Below are positions 1 through 60,409 of a DNA stretch of 64,000 nt, one piece after another. Each line of letters begins with the position of its first letter. Position 1 is the first letter of the stretch. The notes under the pieces are model-generated. The model worked only from the letters and a program-made list of their open reading frames with translations. It was not told the DNA's origin and did no database searches. Origin of the DNA: Streptomyces violaceusniger Tu 4113 (GTDB lineage Bacteria; Actinomycetota; Actinomycetes; Streptomycetales; Streptomycetaceae). Position numbers and translations under genes: made by a program. The DNA lies in contig NC_015957.1 in NCBI RefSeq assembly GCF_000147815.2, forward strand, positions 9,176,001-9,240,000, written 5' to 3'.

Positions 1-981
1 GGTGGCGAGCAGGGCCTGGGCCTCGATCGGGTCGCCCAGCGTCGTGCCCGTGCCGTGCGCCTCCACCACATCGACATCGGCGGTGGTGAGCCGGGCGCTG
101 GTCAGCGCGTCGCGGATGACGCGCTGCTGGGACGGGCCGTTGGGCGCCGTCAGACCGTTGGAAGCACCGTCCTGGTTGATGGCCGAGCCCCGCACGATCG
201 CCAGGACGCGGTGTCCGTTGCGCCGCGCGTCCGAGAGCCGCTCGACGAGCAGCATGCCCGCGCCCTCGCCCCAGCCGGTGCCGTCCGCCGACGCCGCGAA
301 GGACTTGCAGCGGCCGTCGGTGGACAGGCCCTGCTGGCGGCTGAAGTCGATGAACGTGTCCGGGGTGGCCATGACGGTCACACCACCGGCCAGCGCCAGC
401 GAGCACTCGCCGTTGCGCAGCGCCTGCGCGGCCAGGTGCAGTGCCACCAGCGACGACGAGCACGCCGTGTCGATGGTGACCGCCGGGCCCTCGAGCCCGA
501 AGGTGTACGCCACCCGGCCCGAGGCGATGGACCCCGCGCCGCCCGTGCCGAGGTAGCCCTCGAGTCCCTCGGGGACGGCGGTCAGCCGGGTCAGATAGTC
601 GTGGTACATGACGCCCGCGAAGACACCGGTCTTGCTGCCGCGTACGGCCGCCGGGTCGATGCCCGCGCGCTCGAACGCCTCCCACGACGTCTCCAGCAGC
701 AACCGCTGCTGCGGATCCATCGCCATGGCCTCGCGCGGGTTGATCCCGAAGAAGTCCGGGTCGAAGTCGGCGGCGTCGTGCAGGAAGCCGCCCTCGCGGG
801 TGTAGCTGGTGCCCACCTGGTCGGGGTCGTCGCTGTAGAGCGCGTCGAGGTCCCAGCCACGGTCGGCGGGGAACGGGGAGATGGCGTCGGTGGCACCCGT
901 GACGAGCTGCCACAACTCCTCGGGGGTGGTGACCCCGCCCGGGTAACGGCAGCTCATCCCGACGATGACGATCGGGTCGTC
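1..981 (-). other. PKS module 11: partial ketosynthase
   Basis: The KS opens with [17 protein letters not shown] at about 981 and continues through the active-site TACSSS (about 460-490) and the first catalytic His (EAHGTGT, about 40-65). The rest is beyond the left edge, so the AT choice and reductive domains of this module are unknown. Confidence 0.9.
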
Positions 982-3900
982 GTCGGTGGCGGCCGTGACC
1001 GGCACCGGCGTGTGCACCTCCGCCTGCTCCTCGCCCACCAGCTCGGTCCGCAGATGGCGGGCCAGGACCTGCGGGTCCGGATAGTCGAAGATGAGGGTCG
1101 CGGGCAGCCGTAGCCCGGTAACGGAGTTGAGCTGATTGCGCAGCTCCACGGCCGTGAGCGAGTCGAAGCCCAGGTCCTTGAACGCCCGCCCGGAGCCGAT
1201 GGTCTCCGCACCCGCGTAGCCGAGTACGGTCGCCACCTGCGCCCGGACCAGGTCCAGCAGCAGCCGCTCCTGCTCCGCCGTGCTCAGCCCGGCGAGCCGC
1301 CCGGCCAGACCGGTCTCGCCGCCCGCCGCGACCGCGTCCACCGCGCGCCGCGCCGGGACCCGCACCAGACCGCGCAGCAGCGGCGAGATCGCGGGCTGGT
1401 TGCGCAGCGCCGCGAGGTCCAGCCGCATCGGCACCAGCGACGCCTCGTCGACGGTCAGCGCGGCGTCGAAGAGCCGCAGCCCCTCCGCCACCGGCAGCGG
1501 GGGCACTCCGGCCCGCCGCATCCGGGTGAGGTCGGCCTCGTCCAGGGTGTCGCCCATACCGCCACCGGCCCACAGGCCCCACGCCAGCGAGGTGGCCGGC
1601 AGGCCCTGGGCGGCGCGGTGCTGGGCAAGGGCGTCCAGGAAGACGTTGGCCGCCGCGTAGTTGCCCTGGCCGGGGCCGCCGAAGACGCCGGCGGCGGAGG
1701 AGAAGAGCACGAACGCCGAGAGGTCCTGGTCTCGGGTCAGCTCGTGCAGGTTCCAGGCGGCGTCCGCCTTCGGGCGCATGACGTTTTCGACGCGCTCGGG
1801 TGTCAGCGAGCCGATCACACCGTCGTCCAGCACACCGGCGGTATGCACGACGGCCGTGAGCGGATGGTCGGCGGGGATGGCGGCGAGGGTCGCGGCGAGC
1901 GCGTCCCGGTCCGCCACATCACACGCCGCCCAGCGCACGCTCGCGCCCAACTCGGCCAGTTCGGCGCCGAGTTCGGCCGCTCCCGGCGCCTGGTCGCCAC
2001 GGCGGCTCACCAGCAGCAGATGCCGCACGCCACGCTCTGCCACCAGGTGGCGGGCGAACAGGCCGCCCAGCGAGCCGGACGCACCGGTGACCAGCACCAT
2101 GCCGTCCGGGTTCCACTCCGGGGCCTCGCTGTCGGCCGACGACGCGGCGCGGGCCAGGCGTGGCGTCTTGAGGACGCCCTGGCGCACCGCGACCTCGGGC
2201 TCGCCGCTTGCGAGGGCTGCGGACAGTGCGGGCAGCGCGGTCTGCGAGTCGTCGGGGCTGTCGACGTCGATCAGGAGGAGCCTGTCCGGGTTCTCGGACT
2301 GCGCGGAACGCACCAGACCGCGTACGGCGGCGCCCGCGAGGTCCGTCACCGGTTCGGCGGCCTCGGTGGCCACGGTCCCTGAGGTCAGCAGGACCAGACG
2401 TGAGTCCATGAAGCGGTCATCCGCCAGCCAGGACTGGAGGAGGTGGAGGGCTTGGGTGGTGGCGTGGTGTGCGGCTCGGGTGGGGGTTTCCCCTATCCCG
2501 CCCCTTCCCGCAACCATGGGCTCCGCCCCTGGACCCCGGTCCTCAAACGCCGGACGAGCTGGGTCTGCCGCGCCCGGACGCCCTTCGGGCGTGTCCTCAA
2601 TCGCCGGACGGGCTTGATTTGCCGCACCTCGGCCTTCAAGTGCCGCGTCTACATGGGCTTGATTTGCCAGGTCGACCACGACGTACTCCGGCAGCGCCGT
2701 TCCGGAATCGACGGCCTCGCTCAGCGCGGCCAGGTCCGGGTATGCGGCGAGGCCCAGGGTGTCCGTGCCCAGTGCCGCCCAGCGGCCGTCGATCGTGGCT
2801 GCGTCCACCAGCCCGGCCGTCGTCCACTCCACGCGGTACAGCGACTCGTGGTAGGCCGTCCGCGCGCTCTGCAACTGCTCGGCCGAGACCGGGCGCAGCA
2901 CCAGCGAGTCCACGGCCGCGACCGGGGCGCCCGTGGCGTCCGCGATCTCCAGCCGGACGCCGTCGCCGCCCACGGCGGCCATCCGCACCCGCAGCGTGGC
3001 CGCGCCGCTCGCGTACAGCGACACCCCGGTCCAGGCGAACGGCAGCCGCCCCTCGGTCTCGGTGCCGCCGAGCCCGGCCAGGCCGAGCGCGTGCAGCGCG
3101 GCGTCCAGCAGCGCCGGGTGCAGCCCGAACGCGGCGGCCTCCTCGGCCGTGCCCTCGTCCAGCGCCACCTCGGCGAACACCTCGCCGCCGCGCCGCCATG
3201 CCTTGCGCAGCCCCTGGAACGCGGGGCCGTACGCGAAGCCGACGTCCCGCAGCTCGGCGTAACGGTCGCCGACCTCCACCTCGGCGGCGTCCGCCGGAGG
3301 CCATGCGGTCAGCTCGAACGACGCCTCCGGCGCATCGCCGGACGCCAGGACACCGGACGCATGCCGGGTCCACGGCTCCTCGGCCGGCAGATGCTCGGCC
3401 CGGGAGTGCAGCTCCAGCGGGCGGCGGCCGGTGTCATCGGCCGCGCCGACCCACAGCCGTAGCTGGACGCCCCCGTCCTCGGCCAGCACCAGCGGCGCTT
3501 CGAGGGTCAGCTCCTCCAGCACCTCGCAGCCGACCTGGTCACCGGCCCGGACCGCCAGCTCCACGAACGCGGTGCCCGGCAGCAGCACGGTGTCCATGAT
3601 CGTGTGATCGGCGAGCCACGGGTGCGTGGACAGCGCCAGCCGCCCGGTGAACAACATCCCGTCCGCGCTGGGCAGTTCGGCACTGGCGCCGAGCAGCGGA
3701 TGCCCGGCCTCGCCCAGCCCGACCGCGGCCACATCGCCGAGGAACAGCGACGAGACCTTCGGCCAGTAGCGCTGCCGCTGGAAGGCATACGTGGGCAGCT
3801 CGGCCAGCTCGTCCGGCGCCAGTCGGGTGGCGCCGGTCCCGGCGTAGAAGGCCGCCCAGTCCACCGCCACACCGCGCACGTGCGCCCGGGCGATGGCCGT

Positions 3901-6900
3901 GGTCAGCGCCTCGGCCTCGGGACGGTCCTTGCGCAGCACGGAGACGAACGCGGTGTCCGACGCGGCGTCGGTCACACACTCCTGCGCCATCGCGGTCAGG
4001 ACACCGTCGGGGCCCAGCTCGATGAAGGTGGTGACGTTGCGCGCTTCGAGAGTGCGGATGCCGTCCAGGAAGCGGACGGCCTCGCGGACGTGGCGCACCC
4101 AGAAGTCGGCGGTCGTGATCTCCTCCGCGGAGACCACGTTCCCGGTCAGGTTGGAGACGATCGGGATGCGCGGGGCCTCGTACGTCAGCCCCTCCGCCAC
4201 CTCGCGGAACGCCTCCAGCATCCCGTCCATACGCGGGGAATGGAACGCGTGGCTGACCGTGAGCCGCTTGGTCTTCCGACCCTGCGCCTCGAAACCGGCC
4301 GCGATCTCCAGCGCCGCATCCTCATCACCGGCGATCACGACCGACGTCGGCCCGTTGAGCGCGGCGATCGACACCCGCTCGGTCAGCAGCGGTGCGACCT
4401 CGTCCTCCGAAGCCTGCACCGCGATCATCGCGCCACCGGCCGGAAGCTCCTGCATCAACCGCCCACGCGCCGCCACCAGCTTCGACACATCCGCCAGCGA
4501 CAACACACCCGCCACATGCGCGGCAGCCAACTCACCAATCGAATGCCCCGACACGAAGTCCGCACGCAGACCCCACGCCTCCACCAACCGGAACAACGCC
4601 ACCTCAACCGCGAACAACGCAGGCTGAGTGAACCCCGTCTGATCCAGCGCGTCCGCGTCCTCCCCGAACAGCACCGTCTTCAACGGCCGTTCCAGATGCG
4701 CGTCCAGCTCATCGCAGACCGCGTCCAGCGCCTCCGCGAAGGCCGGGTAGGCGTCGTACAGCTCACGGCCCATGCCGAGCCGCTGGCTGCCCTGCCCCGT
4801 GAACAGGAACGCCACCCGGCCACCGGCCACCGAACCCTGAACGAGCCCCGCCGCCGTCCGCCCCTCGGCGAGCGCCGCCAGGCCGGACAGCAGCCCGTCC
4901 CGGTCCTCGGCGACCAGCGCCGCGCGCTCCTCGAACGCCGAGCGGCCCACGGCGAGCGCATAGCCGAGGTCAGCCGTCCGCAGCTCGGTCCGCTCGGTCA
5001 GGTGGCCGTGGAGCTGCTGGGCCTGCTCGCGCAGCCCGTCCGCCGTCCGGGCCGAGAGCAGCAGCGGCAGGGCCGCCCCGCCCTCATCAGCGGACTCAAC
5101 GGTCTCAACAACCTCAGCCGCCGGGGCCTCTTCCACCACGGCGTGGGCATTGGTGCCGCTGAAGCCGAAGGAGGAGATGCCCGCGCGGCGCGGATGGCCG
5201 GTCTCCGGCCATGCCACCTGCTCCGTCAGCAGGCTGATGTCGCCCGCCGACCAGTCGACATGCGGGGTGGGCTCGTCCACGTGCAGTGTGCGCGGGAGCA
5301 CCCCGTGCCGCATGGCGAGGACCATCTTCATCACACCGGCGACACCGGCCGCGGCCTGCGTGTGCCCGATGTTGGACTTGATGGAGCCGAGCAGCAGTGG
5401 CTGCCCTTCCGTCCGGTCCTGGCCGTACGTGGCGAGCAGCGCCTGTGCCTCGATCGGGTCGCCCAGCCGGGTGCCCGTGCCGTGTGCCTCGACCGCGTCC
5501 ACCTCGGACGCCGAAAGACCCGCACCCGCCAGCGCCTGCCGGATCACCCGCTGCTGTGACGGGCCGTTCGGCGCCGTCAGACCGTTCGACGCACCGTCCT
5601 GGTTGACGGCCGTGCCGCGCACGAGCGCGAGCACCGGGTGGCCGTTACGCCGGGCATCCGACAGCCGCTCCACGAGCAGCATGCCGACGCCCTCGCCCCA
5701 GCCGGTGCCGTCCGCACCGGCCGCGAACGCCTTGATCCGGCCGTCCTCCGCGAGCCCGCGCTGACGGCTGAAGTCCACGAACACACCGGGCGTCGACATT
5801 ACGGTCACACCGCCCGCGAGCGCGATCGAGCACTCACCGCCGCGCAGCGCCTGGATCGCCGAGTGGAGGGCGACCAGCGAGGAGGAGCAGGCGGTGTCGA
5901 TGGTGACCGCGGGGCCTTCGAGACCGAAGGTGTAGGCGAGCCGGCCCGAGATCACGCTGGCCGCGTTGCCCGTGCCCATATGGCCTTCGAGGCCCTGCGA
6001 GTCGCTCAGCAGGAGGGACAGATAGTCCTGGCCGTTGGTGCCGACGAAGACACCGGCGGTGGAGCCGCGCAGGGAAGCGGGGTCGATCCCGGCCCGCTCG
6101 AACGCCTCCCAGGAGGTTTCCAGCAGCAGCCGCTGCTGCGGGTCCATGGCAAGTGCCTCGCGGGGCGAGATGCCGAAGAACGCGGGGTCGAAGTCGGCCG
6201 CGTCGCGCAGGAATCCGCCCTCGCGGGCGTATGAGGTGCCCTCGACGTCCGGGTCCGGGTTGTAGAGCGTCCGGAGGTCCCAGCCGCGGTCGGCGGGCAT
6301 GTCCACGATGGCGTCCGTGCCGGACACCAGCAGTTGCCACAGCTCCTCGGGGGTGCGGACACCGCCCGGGAAGCGGCAGCTCATCGCGACGATCGCGATC
6401 GGATCGTCGGCGTCCGCCGCGCCCGCCACCGGCGACGCGCCGCCCGTGACGGCCGCCACCTGTCCGCCGAGCAGTTCGGCGAAGAGGTGGTCGGCGAGGG
6501 CGAGCGGCGTCGGGTAGTCGTAGATGAGGGTGGCGGGGAGCCGCAGATCGGTGGCGGCGCCCAGGCCGTTGCGCAGTTCGACGGCGGTGAGGGAGTCGAA
6601 GCCGATCTCACGGAAGGCCCGTTCGGCGCTGATGTCGGACACATCGGCGTGGCCGAGGACCTCCGCCACATGGGTCCGTACGAGATCCAGCAGCGCCCGG
6701 TGGCGCTCCGCCTCGGGCAGGCCGAGGAGCCGTCGCGCGAGCGCGGAGGCCGTCTCGACCGGCGCGGTCTCGCCGGTCGCGGTGGCGGCGGCGGCGCGCG
6801 TGGCGGCCTGGCGCACCTCGGGCAGGTCGGCCAGCAGGGGGCTGGGGCGGCCCGCGGTGAAGCCCGGGGCGAACCGGTCCCAGTCGACATCCGCCACGGT

Positions 6901-9900
6901 CACGGCCGCGTCGCCCAGGTCGAGGGCGCGCTGCAGGGCGTCGATCGCGAGATCGGCGTCCATCGGCGGCATCCCGGCGCGGCGCATGCGCTGCTCCAGC
7001 GCCTCGTCGGCGGCCATGCCGCCCGCGGCCCACGGGCCCCAGGCGATCGAGGTGGCGGGCAGCCCCTCGGCGCGCCGCCGCTGGGCGAGCGCGTCCAGGA
7101 AGGCGTTCGCGGCGGCGTAGTTGGCCTGGCCCGCGGCGCCCACGGTGCCGCTGGTCGAGGAGAACAGCACGAACGCGGACAGGTCAAGATCGCGCGTCAG
7201 CTCGTCCAGAGCGAGCGCGGCGTCGGCCTTCGCACGCAGCACGGAGGCGAAGCGCTCGGGGGTCAGCGACTCCAGAATGCCGTCGTCCAGCACCCCGGCC
7301 GCGTGCACCACGGCCGTCAACGGCAGCTCGGCGGGGAGGTCGGCCAGCAGCCCGGCCAGCGCCTCCCGGTCGGCCACATCGCAGGCGGCGACCGTGATCC
7401 GGGCGCCGGAGGCGGCGAGTTCATCGCGCAGCTCGGCCGCGCCCGGGGCGTCGAGGCCCCGGCGGCTCGTGAGCACCACGTGCTCGGCGCCCTTGTCGAT
7501 CAGCCAACGGGCCACCTGGCCGCCCAGCGCGCCCGTACCGCCCGTCACCAGCACCGTGCCGCGAGCGCTCCAGCCCTCGGCCTCCGCCACCTGCCGTGCG
7601 GTCGCCCGCGCCAGCCGGCGGCCGAACACCCCGGAGGCGCGGACGGCGATCTGGTCCTCGTCCCCGGCCCCGGCGAGCACCACCGCGAGCCGCGACAGCA
7701 CCCGGTCGGTCAGGGTCTCGGGGAGGTCGATCAGACCGCCCCAGCGGTCGGGCAGCTCCAGGGCCGCCACCCGGCCAAGACCCCACACCTGGGCGCGGGC
7801 CGGTTCCACCAGCTCGCCCTGACGCCCCGTCGAGACCGCGCCCCGGGTGGCACACCACAGCGGCGCGTCGATCGCGGCGTCGCCCATGGCCTGCACGAGG
7901 GCGGCCGTGGGCAGCAGGGCGTCGGCGTCCCCGGTGGCCAGCAGCGAGAGCACACCGGACACGGCGCCACCGTCGGCCGCCGTACGCAGCCGCTCGGCGA
8001 TGCCCGCGCGGTCCTCGGCGGCCAGGTCGAGCCGCCGCACCTCGGCGCCCCGCTCGGTCAGCGTACGGACAACACCGTCCGTCCACGCGTCGGCGGCGGC
8101 GTCCTCGGCGGGGGCGGCGACCAGCCACACCCCGGACAGCCGGGCCGCGGAGCCCAGCGACAGCGGCTTCCACGCCACCTGGTAGCGCCAGCCGTCGACA
8201 CCGGCGGCTGCCCGGCTCGCCACCGGCTCCTCGGGCCAGTAGCGACGGTGCTGGAAGGCGTACGTCGGCAGGTCGACGCGGTGGGCGCCGGTCCCGGCGA
8301 AGTACGCGGCCCAGTCCGGCGCCACGCCCCGCACATACGCGCGGGCCACGGCCTTGGTCAGCGCCTCGGCCTCGGGCCGGTCCTTGCGCAGCGCGGAGAC
8401 GAACGCGGCATTGCCACCGGTGACGCACTCCTGCGCCATCGCGGTGAGGACGCCATCGGGGCCCAGCTCGACGAAGGTCGTCACGCCCCGGGCTTCCAAC
8501 GTCCGCACACCATCGAGGAAGCGAACGGCCTCGCGGACGTGGCGCACCCAGAAGTCGGCGCTGGTGATCTCCTCGGCGGAGGCGACCGCGCCGGTGAGGT
8601 TGGAGACGATCGGGATACGCGGGGCCTCGTACGTCAGCCCCTCCGCAACCTCGCGGAACGCGTCCAACATCCCGTCCATGCGCGGCGAATGGAAGGCGTG
8701 GCTGACCGTGAGCCGCTTGGTCTTACGACCCTGCGCCTCGAAGCCCGCCGCAATCGCGACAGCCTCGTCCTCATCACCCGCGATGACGACCGAAGTGGGC
8801 CCGTTGAGCGCGGCGATCGACACCCGCTCGGTCAGCAGCGGCGTGACCTCGTCCTCCGACGCCTGGACAGCGATCATCGCGCCGCCAGCGGGCAGCTCCT
8901 GCATCAGACGGCCACGCGCCGCCACCAGCTTCGCCGCATCCGCGAGCGACAACACACCCGCCACATGCGCGGCGGCCAACTCACCGATCGAGTGTCCCGA
9001 CAGATAGCCGGGCCGCAGTCCGCACGCCTCGACCAGCCGGAACAACGCCACCTCGACCGCGAACAAAGCGGGCTGAGTGAAGCCGGTCTGATCCAGCGCC
9101 TCGGCGTCCTCGCCGAACACCACCGTCTTCAACGGCCGTTCCAGATACGCGTCCAGCTCCGCGCACACCGCGTCCAGCGCCTCCGCGAACACCGGATAGG
9201 CGTCGTACAGCTCACGCCCCATCCCCAGCCGCTGACTCCCCTGCCCCGTGAACAGGAACGCCAGCTCACCCTCGGCGACCGCCCCCTCGACCAGCCCCGG
9301 CGCGGACTCGCCCCGCGCCAGCGCGTCGAGGCCGCGCAGCAGGTCGTCCCGACCGTCCGCGACCAGCACCGCGCGGTGGTCGAGCGCGGCGCGGCCGGTG
9401 ACCAGGGTGTGGGCGACGTCGGCCGGTGCGAGGTCGGGGTGCGCGGTCAGATGGGCGTAGAGCCGCTCGGCCTGGGCCCGCAGGGCGTCGCTGCCCTTGG
9501 CGGAGAGCGCGTACGGCAGCACATCGGAGCCGCCCGGCGCGGCCTCCGCCACCGGTTCGGCCGTGTCGGCCGGGGCCTGCTCGATGATGGTGTGGGCGTT
9601 GGTGCCGCTGATACCGAACGAGGACACGGCGGCGCGGCGCGCCCGGCCGGTCTCGGGCCACTCCTGCGCCCGCGTCAGCAGCGCGATATCACCGGCCGTC
9701 CAGTCGACGTGCGGCGACGGCTCGTCCACATGCAGCGTCTGCGGCAGCACACCGTGCCGCATCGCCATCACCATCTTGATGATTCCGGCGACACCGGCCG
9801 CCGCCTGGGAGTGGCCGATGTTGGACTTGATGGAGCCGAGCCACAACGGCCGGTCCGCGTCCCGCTCCTGACCGTAGGTGGCCAGCAGCGCCTGCGCCTC

Positions 9901-12900
9901 GATCGGATCGCCCAGCGTCGTACCCGTGCCGTGCGCCTCGACGACATCCACATCGCCGCTGGTCAGCCCGGCGCTGGTCAGCGCCTTGCGGATGACGCGC
10001 TGCTGGGACGGGCCGTTCGGCGCCGTCAGTCCATTGCTCGCACCATCCTGGTTGACGGCCGAGCCGCGCACGACGGCCAGCACCTGGTGGCCGTGGCGCC
10101 GCGCGTCCGACAGCCGCTCCACGAGCAGCATGCCGACGCCCTCGCCCCAGCCGGTGCCGTCCGCACCCGCCGCGAACGCCTTGCAGCGGCCGTCGGCGGC
10201 CAGGCCGCCCTGGCGGCCGAACTCGGTGAAGTGGCCGGGCGTCGTCATCACGGTGACACCGCCCGCGAGCGCCATCGTGCACTCGCCCTGGCGCAGCGCC
10301 TGGATCGCCCAGTGCAGCGCCACCAGCGACGACGAGCAGGCCGTGTCGACGGTGACCGCCGGGCCCTCCAGACCGAGGGCGTAGGCGATACGGCCGGACA
10401 TGACGCTGCCCGCGTTGCCCGTCATCACATGGCCCGCGACCTCCGCGCCGGCCTGCTCCAGGCCCGCGTCGTAGCCGCTGTAGGCCGCGCCCACGAACAC
10501 GCCGACCGAGCGGCCACGGAGCGAGTCCGGGTCGATCCCGGCGCGCTCGAACACCTCCCAGGACGTCTCCAGCAGCAGCCGCTGCTGCGGGTCCATCGCG
10601 AGCGCCTCACGCGGCGAGATGCCGAAGAACGAGGCGTCGAAGAGGTCCGCGTCGTGCAGGAAGCCACCGGCGCGGGCGTAGTCGGACGGGGCCGCGTCGG
10701 CCTCGTCGCCTTCCGCCGCCCACTGGCTCTCCCAGTTGCGGTTGACGGGGAAGCCGGTGATGGCGTCCGAGCCGGTGGCCACGAGCTGCCACAGGTCCTC
10801 GGGCGAGCGGACGTCGCCGGGGTAGCGGCAGCCCATCGCGACGATGGCGATCGGGTCGTCGGCGAGGGAGGCGGCGGTCGCGGGGAACGCCGGGTCCGCC
10901 TGCTCGGCCGCGGCCTCGTGGTCGTCCGGGCCGAGGAGTTCGGCGCGCAGATGGTCGGCGAGGACGGTGGGGTTCGGGTGGTCGAAGACGATCGTGGAGG
11001 GCAGCTTGAGCCCGGTGGCGGCGGAGAGCCGGTTGCGCAGTTCGACGGCGGTGAGCGAGTCGAAGCCCAGCTCCTTGAAGGCGCGGCGGGCCTCGATGGC
11101 GTCGGCGGAGGCGTGGCCGAGGGCCGTGGCCACATGGCCGCGGACGAGGTCGAGCAGCGTCCGGCGGCGCTCGTTCGGGGAGAGCGTGCGCAGCCGCTGG
11201 GCGAGGGACGAACCGGCGGCGGGCGCGCCCGCGGCGGTGCGCCGGCCGGTCGTGCGGATCAGCCCGCGCAGCAGCGCCGGGACCGGGCCGGATCCGGCGG
11301 CGGAACGCAGCGCCGCGAGGTCGAGCCGGGCCGGGATCAGCAGGGTCCGGCCGGTGCGGCGGGCGGCGTCGAAGAGCGCCATGCCCTCGTCGTCGGTGAG
11401 GGCGCCCATGCCGCTGCGGGCGAGCCGCAGCAGATCGGTCTCGGTCAGCTCGCCGGTGATACCGCCGGACTGGGCCCACAGGCCCCACACCAGCGAGGTG
11501 GCGGGCAGGCCCGTCGCGTGGCGGTGGGCGGCGAGCGCGTCGAGGAAGACGTTGGCCGCGGCGTAGTTGGCCTGGCCCGCACCGCCCAGCGTGCCCGCGA
11601 TGGCGGAGAACAGCACGAACGCGGACAGGTCGAGACCGCGGGTCAGCTCGTGCAGATTCCAGGCCGCGTCCACCTTCGGACGCAGCACCCGCTCGAGCTG
11701 CTCGGGCGTCAGGGCGGCGGCCGTGCCGTCGTCCAGCACACCGGCGGTGTGCACGACGGCCGTCAGCGGATGCTCGGCCGGGATGGCGGCCAGGGTCGCG
11801 GCGAGGGCGTCGCGGTCCGCGGCGTCGCAGGCGGCGAGGGTGATCTCGGCGCCGTGCTCGCGGAGTTCGGCGGCCAGCTCGGTGGCGCCGTCGGCGTCCG
11901 CGCCACGGCGGCTGGTCAGCAGGAGGTGGCGTACGCCGTGCTCGGCGACCAGGTGGCGGGCGAGCAGACGGCCCAGGGCGCCGGTGCCGCCGGTGATGAG
12001 CACGGTGCCGTCGGCGTCGAACGCCGGGGCGGCGGCCACGGAGCCGTCGTCCCGGGCCTGGGCCGAGCCCGGGGCCGAACCGGAGCCCGGAGTCAGGGCC
12101 GAGCCCGGGGCCGAACCGGAGCCCGGGGCCGGCGCCGAGGCGCGGGCCAGCCGGGGCGCGAGGGCCCGGCCCGCGCGCAGGGCGAGCTCCGGCTCCCCGG
12201 TGGCGAGGGCGTCGGAGAGCGCGTCGACGGAGGTGTCGACGGTCTCTTCGAGGTCGACCAGGACGAAGCGGCCGGGGTTCTCGGTCTCGGCGGAGCGCAC
12301 CAGACCCCACAGGGGCGCGTGCACCAGATCGGTGACGCCCTCCTCGGCGTCGGCGGCCATCGCGCCCCGGGTGACGACCACCAGGCGCGCGTCGGCGAAC
12401 CGCTCATCGGCCAGCCAGCCCTGCACCAGGGCCAGCGCACGCCGTGCCTCCCGGTGCGCGGCCCCGGCCACGTCCTCGTCCGGGCCGCTGGGTGCGGGAG
12501 CGAAGGACGCGAGGACGAGTTCCGGGGCGGCGGTGTCGCCCACCTCGACGGACGCACCCAGCGCGGCCAGCTCGGCGACGGAGGCGGCGGCCACCGCGGC
12601 CGGGACGAGACCGAACGGGTCCTCGCCCAGGACGACACGGCGGGTGGCGGCATCCGGACCGGCGGAGGTGGTCTGCGGGGCCACCCAGTCGAGCCGGAAC
12701 AGGCTCTGCCGCGCCACGTCCGCGTCGCCGGTGAGGTCGTCGGGGAGTGGACGGCAGCGCAGTCCGTCGATGGCGGCGACCGGCTCGCCCGTGGCGTCGG
12801 CGAGCGCCAGGGTCACGGTGTCGGCTCCGGCGGGCGCGATCCGTACGCGCAGCGCGGACGCGCCCTCCGCGTACAGGCGGACGCCCTGCCAGACATCGGT

Positions 12901-15900
12901 CAGTTGGGCACCCTCGCGGCCGTGGAGAGCGTGCAGGGCGGCGTCCAGCAGCGCCGGGTGTACGGCGAACTCTCCGGCGCCGGGCTTGACGTCGTCGTCC
13001 AGCCGGACCTCGGCGAAGAGTTCGTCCCCGCGCCGCCAGGCGGCCGTGAGCCCCTGGAACCCCGGGCCGTGCCGCAGCCCGGCCTCGGCCAGCCGGGCGT
13101 AGAGCCCCTCGGGCTCGATGGCCTCGGCGGCGGTCGGCGGCCACTCGGCCAGGTCGAACGACGGGCCGGGGGCGCCGGAGGCGAGCACACCGCTCGCGTT
13201 CCGCACCCACGCCGTGTCGGCGGCGGCGTCCTCCGGACGGGAGGAGACGGTGAACGAACGACGCCCGGCGTCGTCCGGGACACCGACCGTGAGCTGCAGC
13301 CGGACGCCACCGCGTGCGGGCAGCACCAGCGGGGCGTGCAGGGTCAGCTCGTCGAGCAGATCGCAACCGACCTGGTCACCGGCCCGGACGGCAAGCTCCA
13401 CGAACGCCGGGCCCGGGACCACCACCGCATCCCGGACCGTGTGATCGGCCAGCCACGGATGGGTGTCGAGGCCAAGTCGTCCCGTGAAGACGAGTCCATC
13501 GGACTCCGCCAGCGGCACCGCCGCACCCAGCAGCGGATGCCCGGCCAACTCCAGTCCCACGGAGGCCACATCACCGACGGATGCCGCACCCGGCTCCAGC
13601 CAGAACCGCTCATGCTGGAAGGCGTACGTCGGCAGGTCGACCCGAACCGCGCCGGTCCCGGCGAAGTACGCGGCCCAGTCCGGCGCCACACCACGGACGT
13701 GGGCCCGGGCGATGGCCGTGGTCAGCGCCTCGGCCTCGGGGCGGTCCTTGCGCAGCGCGGAGATGAACGCGGCGTCCTCGCCGGTCGCGCAGTCCTGGGC
13801 CATGGCGGTGAGAACACCGTCGGGGCCCAGCTCGACGAAGGTGGAGACGTTCTGCGCCTCGAGCGTCCGTATGCCATCGAGGAAGCGGACGGCCTCGCGG
13901 ACGTGGCGGACCCAGAAGTCGGGGCTCGTGATCTCCTCGGGGGAGACCACGTTCCCGGTGAGGTTGGAGACGATCGGGATGCGCGGGGCCTCGTACGTCA
14001 GCCCCTGCGCGACCTCGCGGAACGCGTCCACCATGCCGTCCATACGCGGCGAGTGGAACGCGTGGCTGACCGTGAGCCGCTTGGTCTTGCGACCCTGCGC
14101 CTCGAACGAGGCGGCAATCTCCAGCGCCGCGTCCTCGTCACCAGCGATGACCACCGACGTCGGGCCGTTGAGTGCGGCAATCGACACCCGCTCGGTGAGC
14201 AGCGGCGTCACCTCGTCCTCCGACGCCTGCACCGCGACCATCGCGCCACCGGCCGGAAGCTCCTGCATCAACCGCCCACGAGCCGCCACCAGCTTCGCCG
14301 CATCCGCCAGCGACAACACACCCGCCACATGCGCCGCAGCCAACTCACCAATCGAGTGACCCGACAGGAAGTCCGGCTTCAGACCCCACGCCTCAACGAG
14401 ACGGAACAGCGCCACCTCGACCGCGAACAAAGCGGGCTGAGTGACCCCCGTCTGGTCCAGCGCCGCAGCGTCGTCCCCGAACAACACATCCCGCAGCGGC
14501 CGCTCCAGATGCCCGTCCAGCTCCGCACACACCGCGTCCAGCGCCTCGGCGAACACCGGATACGCCTGGCAGAGCTCACGCCCCAGCCCCAGCCGCTGGC
14601 TGCCCTGCCCCGTGAACAGGAACGCCACCTTGCCACCGGCCACCGAGCCCTCGACCACACCCGGCGCACCACGACCCTCGACCAACGCACCCAAACAGGC
14701 CAGCAGCCCGTCCCGGTCCTCGGCCACCACCACCGCACGGTGTTCAAAGGCGGACCGCCCGGTCGCCAGCGAGAACCCCACATCCACCGGACGCAGCTCG
14801 CCACGCGCCTCCACATGCGCCACCAGCCGCTCGGCCTGGTCCCGCAGCGCGCCCGCACCCCGCCCCGACAGCACCCACGGCACCACAGCCGGAGCCGTCA
14901 CAGGAGCCGAAGCAGCCTCCGCCGCTTCGGCCTCCGGCGCCTGCTCGATGACGGTGTGGACGTTGGTCCCGCTCACCCCGAAGGACGAGACGCCCGCCCG
15001 GCGCGGCCGGCCGGTCTCGGGCCACGGCCGCGCCTCGGTCAGCAGGGACACCTCTCCCGCCGACCAGTCGACATGCGGGGTGGGCTCGTCCACGTGCAGC
15101 GTCTGCGGCAGCACCCCGTGCCGCATCGCCATGACCATCTTGATGACGCCGCCGATACCGGCGACGTTCTGGGTGTGACCGAGGTTCGACTTCAGCGAGC
15201 CGAGCCAGAGCGGCCGTCCGTCCGGCCGCTCCTTGCCGTAGGTGGACAGGAGGGCCTGTGCCTCGATGGGGTCGCCCAGCGTGGTGCCCGTGCCATGGGC
15301 CTCCACCGCGTCCACGTCGGCGGGGGTGAGACGGGCGTTCTCCAGGGCCTGCCGGATGACGCGCCGCTGTGAGGGGCCGTTCGGCGCGGTCAGGCCGTTG
15401 GACGCGCCGTCCTGGTTCACGGCGCTGCCGCGCACCACCGCGAGCACCGGGTGGCCGTTGCGCCGCGCGTCCGACAGCCGCTCGACCAGCAGCACCGCGA
15501 CACCCTCGGACCAGCCGGTGCCGTCCGCCGAGGCCGCGAAGGACTTGCAGCGGCCGTCGGCGGAGAGGCCGCGCTGACGGCTGAACTCCACGAACACATC
15601 CGGGGAGGACAGCACGGTCGCGCCCGCCGCAAGGGCCAGCGAGCACTCGCTCTGGCGCAGCGCCTGGACCGCCAGGTGCAGCGCGACCGAGGAGGACGAG
15701 CAGGCGGTGTCGATGGTGGCCGCCGGACCCTCCAGGCCGAAGGCGTACGAGAGCCGACCGGACGCGACGCTGGAGGCGGTGCCGGTGAGCAGATGGCCCT
15801 CGACACCCTCCGGGAGGTCGTACTCCCCCGCCCCGTACGCCTGCGTGGACGCGCCGACGAACACGCCGGTGCGCGAGCCCCGCATCGTGTCCGGGTCGAT

Positions 15901-16320
15901 CCCGGCCCGCTCGAACGCCTCCCAGGAGGTCTCCAGCAGCAGCCGCTGCTGCGGGTCCATCGCGAGCGCTTCACGCGGCGAGATCCCGAAGAAGCCCGGG
16001 TCGAACCGGCTCGCGTCGTACAGGAAGCCGCCCCCGCGGGCGTAGAACGTGCCCTCGCGCTCCGGGTCCGGGTCGTACAGCGCCTCGATGTCCCAGCCGC
16101 GGTCGGTGGGGAAGCCGGAGATGGCGTCCTGGCCGTCCGCGACGAGCCGCCACAGCTCCTCGGGGCTGCCGACGCCGCCGGGGAACCGGCAGCTCATGCC
16201 GACGATCGCGATCGGTTCCCGGGACGCGTCGGTGAGCTGCTGGTTCTGCTTCCGCAGCCGCTCGGTTTCCTTCAGCGAGGCCCGCAGCGCGTCAACGAGC
16301 TTTTCGTTGGGGGTTGTCAT
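1..16320 (-). CDS. Type I modular polyketide synthase, modules 8-10 and start of module 11 (3' end outside window)
   Basis: This cytoplasmic assembly-line enzyme extends a polyketide with malonyl-CoA. The ATG at 16320 ([18 protein letters not shown]) has a GGAG ribosome site 6 bases upstream and opens with a short helical docking region of about 33 residues. Approximate domain order by residue: KS 35-460, AT 562-853, DH 925-1183, KR 1435-1612, ACP 1721-1795 (module 8); KS 1820-2246, AT 2351-2649, KR 2917-3100, ACP 3200-3280 (module 9); KS 3303-3733, AT 3832-4130, DH 4207-4450, KR 4738-4915, ACP 5014-5090 (module 10); KS 5113 onward (module 11). Every KS has the TACSSS cysteine and every complete AT has GHSIGE and HAFH, the malonyl type. 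The frame is still open at base 1, so the gene continues outside. It starts 25 bases after the previous PKS gene stops, so they are probably co-transcribed. Residues of about 4551-4614 are an odd insert, described separately. Confidence 0.97.
1050..6411 (-). other. PKS module 10: KS-AT(malonyl)-DH-KR-ACP with repeat-derived insert
   Basis: KS lies at about 6411-5125, AT at 4825-3930, DH at 3700-2970, catalytic KR at 2105-1575 and ACP at 1275-1050. The DH has [10 protein letters not shown] and LLDAALH. The KR has [11 protein letters not shown] and GNYAAAN. A double bond is predicted. Between the DH and the catalytic KR, the structural KR half carries about 63 extra residues encoded by a Streptomyces palindromic repeat (2479-2668). 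Confidence 0.87.
2479..2668 (-). repeat. Streptomyces intergenic-type palindromic repeat inserted in frame in a PKS gene
   Basis: On the minus strand this stretch reads like the short repeat common between Streptomyces genes. It has two variants of GTCCGGCG(A/T)TTGAGG (complements at 2541-2560 and 2595-2614), a GACGCCC/GGGCGT hairpin near 2577-2594, and a segment rich in GGGGCGGAGCCC-like sequence. The 14-mer gggcttgatttgcc occurs twice, at 2610-2623 and 2655-2668. It contains no stop in the PKS frame and encodes low-complexity protein ([26 protein letters not shown]). Other DH-containing modules lack it and go straight from the linker to a (T/A)QALxLLQxWLAD-like helix. The assignment to the repeat family rests on recall of the motif, not on a search. 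Confidence 0.8.
6480..10860 (-). other. PKS module 9: KS-AT(malonyl)-KR-ACP
   Basis: KS lies at about 10860-9580, AT at 9270-8370, the KR region at 8275-7030 and ACP at 6720-6480. The AT shows GHSIGE near 9000 and HAFH near 8700. The KR has the NADPH-binding motif TGGTGALG and the LDD loop ([10 protein letters not shown]) of B-type ketoreductases. It has no DH, so a hydroxyl is predicted. Confidence 0.88.
10935..16218 (-). other. PKS module 8: KS-AT(malonyl)-DH-KR-ACP
   Basis: KS lies at about 16218-14940, AT at 14635-13760, DH at 13545-12770, catalytic KR at 12015-11480 and ACP at 11157-10935. The KS cysteine (TACSSSS) and the ACP serine (LGFDSL) are present. The DH has [10 protein letters not shown], with Asp where Gly is usual, and the paired DxxxH (LLDAALH). 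The KR carries LDD and a catalytic Tyr (ANYAAAN), the B-type pattern. The predicted product of this step is a double bond. The KR structural half contains a 36-base tandem duplication at 12061-12126. DNA of the DH region closely matches module 6. Confidence 0.88.
12061..12126 (-). repeat. 36-base tandem duplication in module 8 KR linker
   Basis: A 30-base string at 12061-12090 is repeated exactly at 12097-12126. The encoded peptide has the repeat [11 protein letters not shown] twice, just before the catalytic KR Rossmann fold. The length is a multiple of three, so the frame is kept. Confidence 0.8.
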
Positions 16321-16345
16321 CGTGTACTCCGTGCTTGGGCCCGCG

Positions 16346-19300
16346 TCAGGAATCGTTGCCGTCGAGGCTGTCGAGGTCGAGCGCCATGTCGATGAGGTGC
16401 TGGACGTCCATCTCGTCGATGGACTCCGCCTCGTCCTCGACGCGGCTGGGATCGGAAGTGGCTGCTTGTGGATCGGCCAGCCGGAGCAGCGTGTCCAACA
16501 GCCCCGCCTCCCGGATCCGGCCCATCGGGATGGTGGCCAGGGTGCGGCGCAGCTCGGCGTCCTGCGGATCGGTGTCCACATGGGCCTGGGCGTTGCCGGG
16601 GCCGTGGCCCGGTCCGTCCGGGATCAGCTCGGTCAGCAGATGCTCGGCGAGCGCGGCCGGTGTCGGGTAGTCGTAGACCAGGCTCGCGGGGAGCCTCAGG
16701 CCGGTGGTCGCGCCGAGCCGGGTGCGCAGTTCGACCGCGGTGAGCGAGTCGAAGCCCAGCTCGCTGAAGGCGCGTCCGGCCTCGACCTCGTCGGCTGAGG
16801 CATGGCCGAGGGCGCTGGCCACATGGGTGCGGACCACCTCCAGCACCGCGTCCTTACGGTCGGCCACGGCCAGTTGGGCCAGCCGCTCGCGCAGCGCGGA
16901 GGCGCCGTCGGCCGCCGCCGGGTCCGCCGATTCGCCCTCGCCGCCGCCCCGCAAGGCCTTGGCGACCTGCGGCAGATCGTCGATCAGCGGGCGGGGGCGG
17001 GCGGCGGTGAAGGCCGGGGCGAACCGCTTCCAGTCGACATCGGCCACCGTCACGGCGGTCTCCTCGCGGGAGAGCACCCGCTGGAAGGCGACCATGTTCA
17101 GCTCCGGTGCCATCGGCGGCAGTCCACGGCGGCGCAACTGCTCCTCCGCGTCGCCCTCGGCGGCCATACCGCCCTCCGCCCACGGGCCCCAGGCCACGGA
17201 GGTGGCGGCGAGACCGCGCGCCCGGCGCTGTTCGGCCAGCGCGTCGAGGAAGGCGTTTCCGGCCGCGTACGCCCCCTGGCCACCGCTGCCCCACACCCCG
17301 GCGATCGAGGAGAAGAGCACGAAGGCGTCCAGCTCGGCGTCCTCGCCGAAGAGGGCGTCGAGGTGGACCGCCCCGGTCGTCTTGGCCGCCACGATCCCGG
17401 CGAACTCGGGGAGTTCGGTGCCGGTGCCGGGCTCCTGCGAGATCCCGGCCGAGTGCACCACGGCACGTACCGGGGTGCCGCCCACGGCCAGCTTCTCCAC
17501 GAGCGCGGCGAGCGCGTCGCGGTCGGCCACATCGCATGCCTCGACGGTCACGGCGGTGTCGGTGCCGGAGAGTTCGGCCACGATCTCGGCCGCGCCGGGC
17601 GCGTCGGGGCCCCGGCGGCTGAGCAGTACCAGCCGCTCCGCGCCGTTGTGGGCCAGCCAGCGGGCGACATGCCGCCCCAGGGCGCCGGTGCCACCGGTCA
17701 CCAGCACGGTGCCGCGCGGCGTCCAGGGTTCGGCGGCGGCGGTGGCCGCGTCGCGCGGGGCCGGGACGAGGCGGCGTACGAAGACCCCGGTGGCGCGGAT
17801 CGCCACCTGGTCCTCGTCGTCGGCCCCGGCGAGCACCGCCGCGAGCCGGTCCAGCGCCCGCTCGTCCACGGTCTCCGGCAGGTCGACCAGACCGCCCCAG
17901 CGCTCGGGCTGCTCCAGGGCGACGACCCGGCCGTAGCCCCAGATCTGGGCCTGGATGGCGCTCTCCAGCCGGTCGGCGCCGCCGGTCGCGACCGCGCCCC
18001 GGGTGGCGCACCACAGCCGCGCCGGTGCCTCCTCGCCCCGCAGGGCGAGCGCCTCGGGCCGCGCCAGCGCCTCGGCCAGCGCACCGGTCAGCGCGAGGCC
18101 GACCGGCACCGCCGGATGCGCCGGGTGCGGCCGCTCGTCCAGCGCCAGCAGGGACAGCACTCCGGCCACCGGGCCGTCGGCCGACGCCTGGGCGAGGCGG
18201 TCGGCCACGGCCGCTGGGTCGGTGTCCGCGGCGTCCAGTTCGACGCGGACGACCCGCACCCCGCGCCGCGTCAGGTCGTCGGCCACCGCGGTGATCCGCG
18301 GGTCGTCGGCGTGGTGCGCGGGGACGACGGTCAGCCAGGTGCCGGCCGGGGCCGGAGAGCCCGACGGGTCCTGCGGACGCGGCTTCCACACCACGTTGTA
18401 GAGGTGTCCATCGGCGGCGGATCGCTCGCGCTGGGCGCGGCGCCACGTCGACAGGGCGGGCAGCACCGCGCTGAGCGGCTGGTCGCCCTCGACCCGCAGC
18501 TCGGTGGCGAGCGACTCCCAGTCCTCGCGCTCCACGGCCTCCCAGAACCGCGCGTCCACCGCGTCCACGGCGGCCTCGGCCGAGGTCCCGGCCTCCAGGG
18601 CGAACTCCGGCCAGTAGCGGCGGCGCTGGAACGCGTACGTCGGCAGGTCGACGCGGTGGGCGCCGGTCCCGGCGAAGTACCCGCCCCAGTCCACCTGGGC
18701 GCCCCGGACATACGCCTGGGCGAGCGCGGTGGTGACGGTCTCGGCCTCGGGGCGGTCCTTGCGCAGCGCGGCGGTGAAGCCCGCCACGTCGGCGTCGGTG
18801 ACGCACTCCTGGGCCATGGCGGTCAGAACGCCGTCGGGGCCCAGCTCGACGTAGGTGGTGACGCCCTGGGCTTCCAACGCCCGTACGCCGTCGAGGAAGC
18901 GGACGGCCTCGCGGACGTGGCGCACCCAGAAGTCGGGGCTGGTGATCTCCTCTGCGGAGACCAGCTCGCCCGTCAGGTTGGACACGAGCGGAATGCGCGG
19001 GGCCTCGTACGACAGCCCCTGCGCCACCTCACGGAACGCGTCCAACATGCCGTCCATACGCGGCGAGTGGAACGCGTGGCTGACCGTGAGCCGCTTGGTC
19101 TTACGACCCTGTGCCTCGAACGAGGCCGCAATCTCCAGCGCCGCGTCCTCGTCACCCGCGATGACCACCGACGTCGGCCCGTTCAGCGCGGCGATCGAGA
19201 CGCGCTCGGTGAGCAGCGGTGTCACCTCGTCCTCCGACGCCTGGATGGCGATCATCGCGCCACCGGCGGGCAGCTCCTGCATCAGCCGGCCCCGCGCGGC

Positions 19301-22300
19301 CACCAGCGTGCACGCGTCCGCGAGGGACAGCACACCGGCCACATGGACGGCAGCCAGCTCACCGATCGAGTGACCGGACAGGAAGTCCGCCTTCAGACCC
19401 CACGCCTCCACCAGCCGGAACAGCGCCACCTCGACCGCGAACAACGCAGGCTGAGTGAAACCGGTCTGGTCCAACGCCTCGGCATCGTCGCCGAAGAGCA
19501 CATCCCGCAGGGGTCGTTCGAGGTGCGCGTCCAGCTCCGCACACACCGCGTCCAGCGCCTCCGCGAACACCGGGTAGGCGTCGTACAGCTCACGCCCCAT
19601 CCCCAGCCGCTGGCTGCCCTGCCCGGTGAAGAGGAAGGCCAGCTTGCCGCCGGTCACCGAGCCCTCGACGAGCCCTGTCGCGCCGCTCCCGTCGGCCAGT
19701 GCCGCGAGCTGCTCGCCGAGAAGGCCGCCGTCCCGGCCGAGCGCCACGGCCCGGTGTTCCAGGGCGGCGCGGGAGGTGGCCAGGGAATAGGCGAGGTCGA
19801 GCGGGCGCGGCCCGTCGGCTTCGCCGTACCCGTGCAGGGAGGCGTCCACGAAGGTGTCCGCGAAGTCGTCCACGGCGGTCCGCAGCCGCGCCGCCTGGGC
19901 CCGTAGCGCGTCCTCGGTACGGCCCGAGACCGGCCAGGCGAGGACGGGCAGGGACCGCTCCGGAGCGGGCGCGGAGACCGCGTCCATGGCCGGGGCCTGC
20001 TCGATGATCGCGTGCGAGTTGGTGCCGCTGAAGCCGAACGAGGACACACCCGCGCGGCGCGGGCGGCCGGTCTCCGGCCAGGGCCGGGCCTCGGTCAGCA
20101 GCTCGATGTCACCCGCGGTCCAGTCCACATGCGGGGTCGGCTCGCTGACGTGCAGGGTCCGCGGCAGCACACCGTGCCGCATCGCCATGACCATCTTCAT
20201 GATGCCGGCGGCGCCCGCCACGGCCTGGGTGTGGCCGATGTTGGACTTCACCGAGCCCAGCCACAGCGGCCGGTCCTCCGGCCGGTCCTGGCCGTAGGTG
20301 GCGAGCAGCGCCTGCGCCTCGATCGGGTCGCCCAGCGTCGTACCGGTGCCGTGGGCCTCCACGACGTCGATGTCCGTAGGCGCGAGCCCGGCGTTGGCGA
20401 GGGCCTGCCGGATGACGCGCTGCTGGGACGGGCCGTTGGGCGCCGTCAGGCCGTTCGACGCGCCGTCCTGGTTGATGGCGGTGGAGCGCAGGACGGCGAG
20501 CACCGGATGGCCGTTCTCGCGCGCGTCGGAGAGCCGCTCCACCAGGAAGATGCCCACGCCTTCGGCCCAGTTGGTGCCGTCCGCGTCATCCGAGAACGCC
20601 TTGATCCGGCCGTCGGCGGCCAGTCCGCGCTGCCGGCTGAACTCCAGGAAGGCGCCCGGGGTCGACATGACCGTGACGGCTCCGGCCAGCGCGAGCGAGC
20701 ATTCGCCGTTGCGCAGCGCCTGCGCGGCCAGGTGCAGCGCCACCACCGACGACGAGCAGGCCGTGTCGATGGTGACCGCCGGGCCTTCGAGCCCGAAGGC
20801 GTAGGAGAGCCGGCCGGAGGCCACGCTGGAGGAGTTGCCGGTGCCGAGGTGTCCTTCGAGGCCCTGCGGCTCGTTCAGCCACAGCGTCAGATAGTCCTGG
20901 TCGTTGGAGCCGATGTAGACACCGGTCCGGCTGCCGCGCAGGGACGCGGGGTCGACCCCGGCCCGCTCGAACGCCTCCCAGGTGGTCTCCAGCAGCAGCC
21001 GCTGCTGCGGGTCCATGGCGAGGGCCTCGCGGGGCGAGATGCCGAAGAACGAGGCGTCGAAGTCGGCCACGTCGTGCAGGAAGCCGCCCTCGCGGGTGTA
21101 GCTGGTGCCCTCGATGTCGGGGTCGTCGCTGTAGAGGGTGGCGAGGTCCCAGCCGCGGTCGGCGGGGAACGGGGTGATGGCGTCGTCACCGGCGGCCAGG
21201 AGCTGCCACAACTCCTCGGGCGACCGCACGCCGCCTGGGAAGCGGCAGCTCATCGCGACGATCGCGATCGGGTCGTCGCGGTCCACCGCGCTGATCACCC
21301 GGTCGGGGACGTTTCCGCCGGCCACGTCCCCGACGATCTCCTCGCGCAGATGGCCCGCCAGGCTGGTCGAGGTGGGGTAGTCGAAGACGAGCGTGGGCGG
21401 CAGCCGCAGCCCGGTCGCCTCGCGCAGCAGATTGCGCAGTTCGACGGCGGTCAGGGAGTCGAAGCCCAGGTCCTTGAAGGCCCGGCCCTCCTCGACGGCC
21501 TGCGGGCCCGCATAGCCGAGGACGGCCGCCACCTGCGTACGGACCAGGTCCAGCAGCAGCCGGTCCTGCTCGGCCGCGCTCAGCCCGGCCAGCCGCCCCG
21601 CCAGCGCGGAACCGCCGCCCGCGGCCGTGTCCACCGCGCGGCGCACCGGGACCCGCACCAGCCCGCGCAGCAGCGGCGCGAGCGCGCCCGCCGCGGCCTG
21701 GGCGCGCAGCGCCACGGCGTCCACGCGCATCGGGACCGGTACCGCCTCGTCCGTGGTGAGCGCGGCGTCCAGGAGGGCAAGGCCCTCCGCCGGGGAGAGC
21801 GGCGGCAGTCCGGCGCGCCGCATCCGGCTGATGTCGGCCTCGTCCAGGCCACCGGCCATACCGGCGCCCGCCCAGGGGCCCCAGGCCAGCGAGACGGCCG
21901 GAAGGCCCTCGGTGCGGCGGTGTGCGGCGAGGGCGTCCAGGAAGGCGTTGGCGGCCGCGTAGTTGCCCTGACCGGGGGTGCCGAAGACGCCCGAGGCGGA
22001 GGAGAACAGCACGAAGGCCGTCAGATCCAGGTCGCGGGTCAGCTCGTGGAGGTTCCAGGCCGCGTCCACCTTCGGGCGCATGACGTGGTCGACGCGCTCG
22101 GGGGTGAGGGAGCCGATCACACCGTCGTCCAGCACACCGGCCGTGTGCACGACGGCGGTCAGCGGATGCTCGGCGGGAACGGTGGCGAGGGTCGCGGCGA
22201 GCGCGTCCCGGTCCGCCACATCACACGCCGCCCAGGCCACGTCGGCACCCAACTCGCCCAGCTCAGCCGTGAGTTCGGCCGCACCCGGGGCCTCGCCACC

Positions 22301-56557: not shown

Positions 56558-56608
56558 CTACACCGTCCCCGTCAGGCTGAAACCCGCTACACCGTCCCCG
56601 TCAGGCTG
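56554..56608 (-). repeat. 29-base tandem duplication across the LAL stop codon
   Basis: The 26-base string at 56554-56579 is repeated exactly at 56583-56608. The second copy contains the last codons and TAG stop of the LAL regulator (SLTGTV); the first is a non-coding echo just beyond the stop. Confidence 0.85.
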
Positions 56609-59397: not shown

Positions 59398-59500
59398 CCC
59401 CCGATGAACGCCACCTGGTACCCCCGACGGACCGCCGGGGACAACAAGCGTGACGAGTGGTGTTTTCCAGTACGTCGGCCAGGTTCCTGAAGCGCCCGGG

Positions 59501-60262: not shown

Positions 60263-60384
60263 GCGTAGGGAAGTTCTTTCACTCGTCAGGCAATCCGTGC
60301 GGACAGACGGCAGAGCCTACCGGGCGTGCATCCAGGGCACCTCGGCACAGCACTGCCCCTCCATGATTAACACGCCCATTGATG

Positions 60385-60409
60385 TAGGGGGCACCCCTAG
60401 TCTAGGGGG
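60385..60409. promoter_or_regulatory. Three TAGGGG boxes upstream of the thioesterase
   Basis: tagggggcacccctagtcta (60385-60404), continuing to 60409, holds TAGGGGG, its complement CCCCTA, and TAGGGGG again, about 9 bases apart. The last box overlaps the TAG stop of the FUSC gene. The core matches boxes upstream of the PKS (51515-51545). Shared control by the LAL protein is plausible but inferred. The rest of 60263-60384 shows no gene. Confidence 0.45.

Follow-up and report, generated by a model that had tools for sequence, protein, structure and literature searches.

Probable in-frame capture of a dispersed palindromic repeat in a ketoreductase loop of Streptomyces polyketide synthases

Results

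The locus and its host gene

The window analysed here is a 64,000-nucleotide stretch of Streptomyces violaceusniger Tu 4113 (contig NC_015957.1, positions 9,176,001 to 9,240,000) that carries polyketide synthase (PKS) genes. Beside these, the interval 56587-62516 holds a regulator of the LuxR type (56587-59397), a thioesterase (59501-60262) and a transporter of the FUSC type (60402-62516). On the plus strand, opposite the PKS genes, the Rfam family ASpks (antisense to pks) is matched ten times (5377-5451, 9826-9900, 15190-15264, 20246-20320, 25547-25621, 30574-30648, 35317-35391, 40723-40797, 45315-45389 and 50004-50078); these are probably conserved coding sequence read from the other strand.

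A first-pass annotation of this DNA, made from the letters alone, had described what looked like a Streptomyces intergenic repeat read in frame within the structural half of a ketoreductase (KR) of one PKS gene, with no stop codon. The observation of a repeat-like stretch in frame in the PKS is confirmed, and the host frame is open throughout. The features are listed in Table 1.

Table 1. Coordinates of the host gene, the ketoreductase region and the parts of the insert (window positions).
Feature	Position	Strand	Remarks
Stop-free frame of host PKS gene	1..16623	-	8,639 codons stop to stop; extends left of the window to C3:9166707
KR structural and KR catalytic region with insert	1366..2841	-	492 aa; fold like solved PKS ketoreductases
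Repeat-derived in-frame loop	2485..2670	-	62 residues in the structural half of the KR; between a strand (fragment residues 53-57) and a helix (120-140)
Tail motif CCCCTATCCCGCCCCTTCCC	2490..2509	+	One base more than the usual 19-nt form outside PKS
Main hairpin CCATGGGCTCCGCCCCTGG	2514..2532	+	Covariation of two outer stem pairs among coding copies
Repeat unit 2	2539..2569	+	Minus strand encodes ARPAFED part
Second hairpin ACGCCCTTCGGGCGT	2578..2592	+	
Repeat unit 1	2593..2623	+	Minus strand encodes NQARPAIED part
Third copy, partial; also the second occurrence of the 14-base direct repeat	2655..2668	+	

The 14-base direct repeat reported previously (2610-2623 and 2655-2668) is exact, and a larger, degenerate pair of 36 nt is also present (2539-2574 versus 2593-2628, 83% identical). 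The internal duplication proposed with the direct repeat is supported. The GC content of the insert by codon position is 0.85/0.63/0.55, compared with 0.75/0.53/0.91 and 0.79/0.53/0.90 in its flanks, and the insert is therefore unlike native Streptomyces coding sequence. RNA folding of the whole insert gives no unusual stability relative to shuffled sequences (z = -0.80), and a search of the window and 15 loci at Rfam gathering scores found no family for the repeat.

The host protein has the structural plus catalytic fold of type I PKS ketoreductases. Its KR region matches 2fr0 from the erythromycin PKS in a Foldseek search of the PDB (E = 1.6e-32, TM 0.76/0.79), with 3mjs (AmphB) as a further fold relative, and the best phmmer match is 3slk (3.2e-104). 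Module alignment, Foldseek and an AF2 model of the insert-bearing fragment agree in placing the insert in the KR structural half. The model has a pTM of 0.78 and a mostly confident KR fold outside the loop, which occupies fragment residues 58-119; residues 63-117 have pLDDT values below 50 (block pLDDT 28-44). This low confidence, itself a prediction from a 21-row alignment, suggests that the captured loop is probably floppy. In the model of an insert-free module of the same window (pTM 0.82), nine residues connect the strand (60-63) to the helix (73-93). Relative to this module the insert adds about 53 residues, and not the 63 of the first-pass annotation.

Two further KR modules of the window, g6_m2 and g6_m3 (in the frame at 26731-43581), have non-repeat expansions in the same loop, composed of GAGVGAG and tandem ADGPA units. 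The KR loop site therefore tolerates length change generally.

A dispersed family of intergenic repeats

Comparison of positions 2479-2680 with the Tu 4113 genome (11.14 Mb in three contigs) by BLASTN identified at least 61 places, including the query site itself; this is a lower bound, the best 40 of 159 first-look candidates having been scored. The similarity is far above chance level: among those 40, the two best non-self matches (3.5e-52 and 6.6e-30) both fall within further PKS genes, and the lowest E-value for an intergenic match is 4.4e-21. The insert and an intergenic copy share 90% DNA identity across 80 bases. Thirty copies were fetched with their flanks, and 25 of these lie outside PKS frames and, in a GC-frame test, lack a coding frame on both sides; this agrees with the intergenic nature claimed for the repeat at first. 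The other five are in PKS frames, in four modules, and include two adjacent copies (L003 and L009) that fail the two-sided test and were assigned to PKS by their stop-free frame. A typical 77-bp intergenic copy (L004) has matches in 99 of 121 genomes of the genus, with the best seven candidates per genome scored.

Exact matches to the tail motif, coding copies included, number 55 in Tu 4113 (genome G000) and 234 in G095. Among the matches listed, none of which come from G000 or G383, the 20-nt form of the tail is present at all six coding places in G164 and G179, and at only 4 of 144 places outside the clusters (100 in G095, 39 in G164 and five in G179). A pattern with an extended stem occurs at 18 places in eight genomes, 17 of them inside these PKS. 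The 20-nt tail raised the suspicion of adaptation to the reading frame, with one inserted base doing away with a TAG. We rejected this, and retain the extra base solely as a lineage marker, because that frame is also open in 32 of 41 non-PKS copies.

One site in many modules

The closest relatives of the insert lie within the same ~142 kb stretch, where three further PKS genes carry them in frame and with unchanged orientation. Within this cluster the insert is present in four of 27 KR modules (the modules being merged matches of a profile search over ten frames), always at one site and in one orientation; in the alignment this site follows a strand ending in PEYVVVDLA or similar and precedes a helix with AAHxATxQAL. 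The locus had been presented as a single case in one module, and this does not hold: there are four such modules here, up to seven in relatives, and other proteins are affected as well.

A protein query of 392 genomes of the genus gave matches in 60. Eight of these (G000, G095, G149, G164, G179, G356, G371 and G383) have a best match with E no greater than 6e-25 in a long stop-free frame, and the ninth-ranked genome has a best match of 9.4e-8. A pattern scan of genome contigs confirmed at least 34 loci, of which at least 24 (L067-L090) match across most of the query and the remaining ten have short, weak matches. The 24 are from S. endocoffeicus, S. iranensis, S. rugosispiralis, S. violaceusniger, S. 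antioxidans, S. himastatinicus, S. niphimycinicus, S. sabulosicollis and S. samsunensis, nine named species, some of whose records appear to be the same strains as numbered genomes, such that the two lists are not independent; we take these species to belong to the S. violaceusniger clade. At two of the loci (L070 and L082) the KR frame stops early, which may be due to sequencing errors.

In five clusters read whole, the insert was recognised by motif in 27 of 95 KR-structural profile matches (four each in G000 and G164, five in G179, and seven each in G095 and G383), and all 27 share a single site and a single reading direction. When slots are assigned by position and sequence, all five clusters have the insert in A, B, C1 and D, and only G095 and G383 have it in E; C2 and C3 are filled in G095 and G383 and empty in G000 and G164. 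G179 has one more filled module that lacks a slot placement.

When the post-loop and KR part served as the query, 10 of the 392 genomes proved to contain close modules (E up to 1e-150), namely the eight above together with G057 and G359. Most modules of the G057 and G359 clusters clearly match one particular module of the insert-bearing clusters best, and none of their 38 KR-structural profile matches contains the insert (0/18 in G057 and 0/20 in G359). At this site VVVGFAPGGDGGPAAVHRAT is found in a module of G359 that shares 87% identity with the C1 module of G000, which carries the insert. The simpler reading of these empty sites is that capture occurred after the split from the G057 and G359 lineages; less simply, the insert may have been lost there. 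Filled and empty loops compared by eye have fuzzy junctions. They revealed no founding insertion and no target-site duplication, the latter being, with terminal inverted repeats, a hallmark of MITEs.

These surveys bear on two predictions of the first-pass annotation, which had expected BLASTN to return many intergenic matches and to find the segment absent from orthologous PKS modules. The former was borne out; the latter holds for the G057 and G359 clusters, although the insert is present in other orthologous PKS genes. Conservation in orthologous PKS and nowhere else, the pattern that had been named as marking ordinary PKS sequence, is not what we observe, as the segment is conserved in orthologs but also dispersed.

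Probable conversion between modules

Fine identity profiles were prepared for two cases, and coarser windows were also run. Slot E of G383, which has the insert, is 88-100% identical to slot E of G000, which does not, except in the interval -350 to +150 relative to the loop, where identity is only 53-74%. The same G383 module is 82-92% identical to its own slot D from 0 to +150, but only 66-92% upstream and over the whole tract, so that slot D is at most a candidate donor. In the second case the C3 and D modules of G095, which are in different genes, are 94-100% identical from -450 to +550 and 54-78% identical just upstream. The insert lies within the converted tract in both, and it has apparently spread from module to module, and also across genes, in short conversion tracts of ~0.5-1 kb.

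Constraint on the peptide, the length and the hairpin

The peptide encoded by the insert appears to be under little constraint. Across 26 insert modules (the 27 described above minus the unplaced G179 module) the insert has a pN/pS of 0.99, compared with 0.48 for the 300 bases that follow and 0.35 for the KR core; the corresponding values in ortholog pairs are 0.97, 0.44 and 0.26. Restricting the comparison to 11 distinct cores gives 1.01, albeit with a bootstrap range of 0.53-2.83. Inserts vary in length from ~29 to 93 residues, and their codons shift between P/L/Q and M/Q/R/I, among others; the words EDTPEGR and RG..GAEP are recurrent.

Length is more uniform in the core of the repeat. All 22 distinct coding cores that fit the search pattern are 43 nt long, whereas 40 distinct non-PKS cores are of 39 (1), 40 (8), 41 (20), 42 (1) and 43 nt (10). 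This fixed length is true only for the 43-nt core: a longer unit is 71 nt in 15 of 19 coding copies, and otherwise 95 (2), 110 (1) or 94 nt (1), with one length phase in 18 of the 19 compared with 24 of 41 non-PKS copies. The copy in the window itself does not fit the longer-unit pattern.

The 8-bp stem of the main hairpin is partly maintained among the 22 distinct coding copies. Paired cells make up 90.9%, compared with 82.3% in shuffled data; there are 16 double-change cells versus 5.6, and the covariation score is 0.206 versus 0.061 (each reached in 0/500 shuffles). The signal drops clearly when the alignment is slid, and the counts are inflated by relatedness of the sequences. There is no excess of pairs changed on both sides (2 versus 1.8 shuffled, 414/500) or of further pair types (6 versus 4.8, 111/500), and the 22 sequences include 7 in which pair 14-30 is broken and 8 in which pair 16-28 is broken. 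On these comparisons, the reading frame seems to limit insertions and deletions and hardly to constrain amino acids, with the palindrome partly kept.

Captures in other proteins

Coding-flank tests flagged two of 32 further loci (L045-L066 and L091-L100) and four of a second set of 40, itself part of the listed non-PKS matches of the protein query; three of these four (L217, L220 and L224) look by eye like ordinary coding sequence and were discounted as false, which leaves three cases. In G277 (L057, 22-3204) the repeat forms a linker of a PTS EIIABC protein, between PTS_EIIA_2 (382-520) and PTS_IIB (574-665). In G361 (L226, 609-2828) the alpha subunit of a methylcrotonyl-CoA carboxylase (MCC) has the repeat inside its BT_MCC_alpha match (466-567), with the opposite repeat strand being read. 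In G026 (L049, 4-2037) the repeat occupies a stop-free read-through junction, with SoxD (38-118) on one side and a Fer2_4/oxidoreductase part (from 190 on) on the other. This frame, in which a SoxD domain and a sarcosine-oxidase-alpha-like protein are continuous, is a possible gene fusion by repeat read-through.

Relatives of the PTS and MCC proteins were compared by eye using 12 loci each, the query included and PTS locus L258 left out. Shortened or decayed inserts were seen among the PTS relatives in G012 and perhaps G046, and among the MCC relatives in G046 and perhaps G012 and G039; the others have different linkers. Capture at naturally variable linkers thus seems to be recurrent but uncommon.

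Discussion

We consider it highly probable that an intergenic palindromic repeat was captured in frame in the KR loop, was tolerated there, and spread by short-tract conversion of modules. A repeat of the intergenic family would have entered the strand-helix loop of a giant PKS module in an ancestor of the present carrier strains, a date suggested by the empty sites in two related clusters. The added residues (~29-93) would be borne as a disordered linker, as AF2 and pN/pS suggest, and tolerated because the length of the KR loop varies between modules anyway. Conversion between similar modules would then copy the insert with a few hundred flanking bases into other modules and genes, a step that the identity profiles show in two cases, and the number of sub-units would be altered by duplication and loss. 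A bolder extension is that the repeat acts as a recombination cassette, its partly kept hairpin seeding or centring conversion tracts that copy repeat and KR neighbourhood between modules and genes, such that a selfish element helps to drive concerted evolution of modules; we offer this tentatively, and think it more doubtful than probable.

The proposal of the first-pass annotation, exaptation into a flexible linker, fares unevenly. The very low pLDDT of the loop fits a flexible linker, but exaptation is unsupported because there is no sign of peptide selection, with pN/pS at 0.97-1.01 and very low AF2 confidence; from both lines the insert looks tolerated rather than recruited. That it is a functional peptide under protein-level selection, such as a docking, spacing or folding element, might be argued from the four slots filled in all five clusters read, the nine named species and the recurrent words, but we judge this very unlikely given a pN/pS near 1 (against 0.26-0.48 in the flanks), the shifting codons, the variable length (~29 to 93 residues) and some orthologous slots that have no insert. 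Selection could instead act on the hairpin in the coding sequence, for example as mRNA structure that slows ribosomes between subdomains, and the excess of pairing, double changes and covariation and its loss on sliding are what this would give. Both-side changes and further pair types at shuffled levels, the two frequently broken pairs, counts inflated by kinship and the ordinary folding of the whole insert all speak against it, however, and we think it rather improbable. Moreover, quasipalindrome correction during replication keeps palindromes paired without selection and would yield the same pattern.

If the KR loop were simply an insertion hotspot, separate intergenic copies would have entered independently in several modules and species. 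A dispersed source certainly exists (61 places in one genome; 99 of 121 genomes of the genus), linkers of unrelated proteins have been entered separately, and hairpin sequences vary between modules. Independent entry may apply to some modules but is unlikely as the general explanation in view of the site and reading direction common to all 27 inserts, the distribution of the 20-nt tail among the matches listed (6/6 coding, 4/144 outside the clusters), the extended stem found almost exclusively in these PKS (17/18) and the position of the insert within the converted tract in both mapped cases. An ordinary PKS linker that merely resembles the repeat has the long low-complexity expansions of g6_m2 and g6_m3 as a precedent at the same loop, but is barely credible against 90% identity to an intergenic copy, a foreign codon-position composition, and a repeat present in 99/121 genomes when close module relatives (E up to 1e-150) occur in 10/392.

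The Streptomyces element resembles REP sequences, which are defined as mostly extragenic, palindromic with a stem-loop, short (14-40 nt in E. coli) and present in many copies, at least in the portion of the source that we saw (PMC12306157). Most fetched copies are extragenic (25/30), the stem-loop has an 8-bp stem with 90.9% of cells paired, and there are at least 61 places in G000; in length, the main hairpin is 19 nt and the shared unit ~68-77 nt. Some of the short, abundant transcripts are said to map to palindromes, with E. coli REPs as an example, in the part of that report available to us (PMC4681348). The GTAG/CGTC REPs, as described in the accessible text, are short palindromes with a GTAG or CGTC tag at one end, are located mainly between genes but also within ORFs, and form dimers and grouped elements (PMC3733652). 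Judged from that description our repeat is similar in being mostly intergenic and sometimes within ORFs, but differs in being a composite of ~70 nt or more with two hairpins; the same portion of text makes no mention of Streptomyces. Titles and opening lines of abstracts, a sample in which subscription literature is mostly uncovered, yielded no published in-frame capture of a Streptomyces repeat, and of six papers in the collection searched that contain the letters GGGCTCCGCCCC, none has a title pointing to Streptomyces.

Together with intragenic REPs, the closest parallel is the Rickettsia palindromic elements (RPE), dispersed palindromes found in frame in protein genes (Ogata et al. 2000, 2002, via a review seen in part, PMC10969869). 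By that description the two are alike in residing in frame within unrelated protein genes, here PKS, a PTS EIIA/EIIB linker and MCC alpha. They are unlike in that RPE are described in the same partial source as having a conserved peptide (PMC10969869), whereas the PKS inserts have pN/pS of 0.97-0.99 and the MCC alpha capture reads the opposite repeat strand. The main hosts here are, moreover, modular megasynthases with signs of spread by intermodular conversion. Rickettsia belongs to a bacterial phylum other than that of Streptomyces, and in-frame palindromes would now be seen in free-living antibiotic producers with large genomes, with empty and intermediate states available for comparison. 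Non-coding repeats can, it seems, become protein sequence without wrecking a large machine, and the loop of the KR structural subdomain appears to take tens of foreign residues in nature, which may be useful for PKS engineering.

Domains within one PKS cluster are known to be homogenised by internal recombination, according to the part of the source that we consulted (PMC4256081). The present case is alike in recombination between modules of one cluster and differs from that account in that the conversion cargo would include a repeat of intergenic origin (PMC4256081). Gain and loss of the repeat would therefore mark tracts, and the length and frequency of intermodular conversion in PKS would thus become measurable. 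Relative to known in-frame palindromes, and with novelty in print unproven, we rate as new the combination of an actinobacterial repeat resident in megasynthases and its propagation by conversion of modules.
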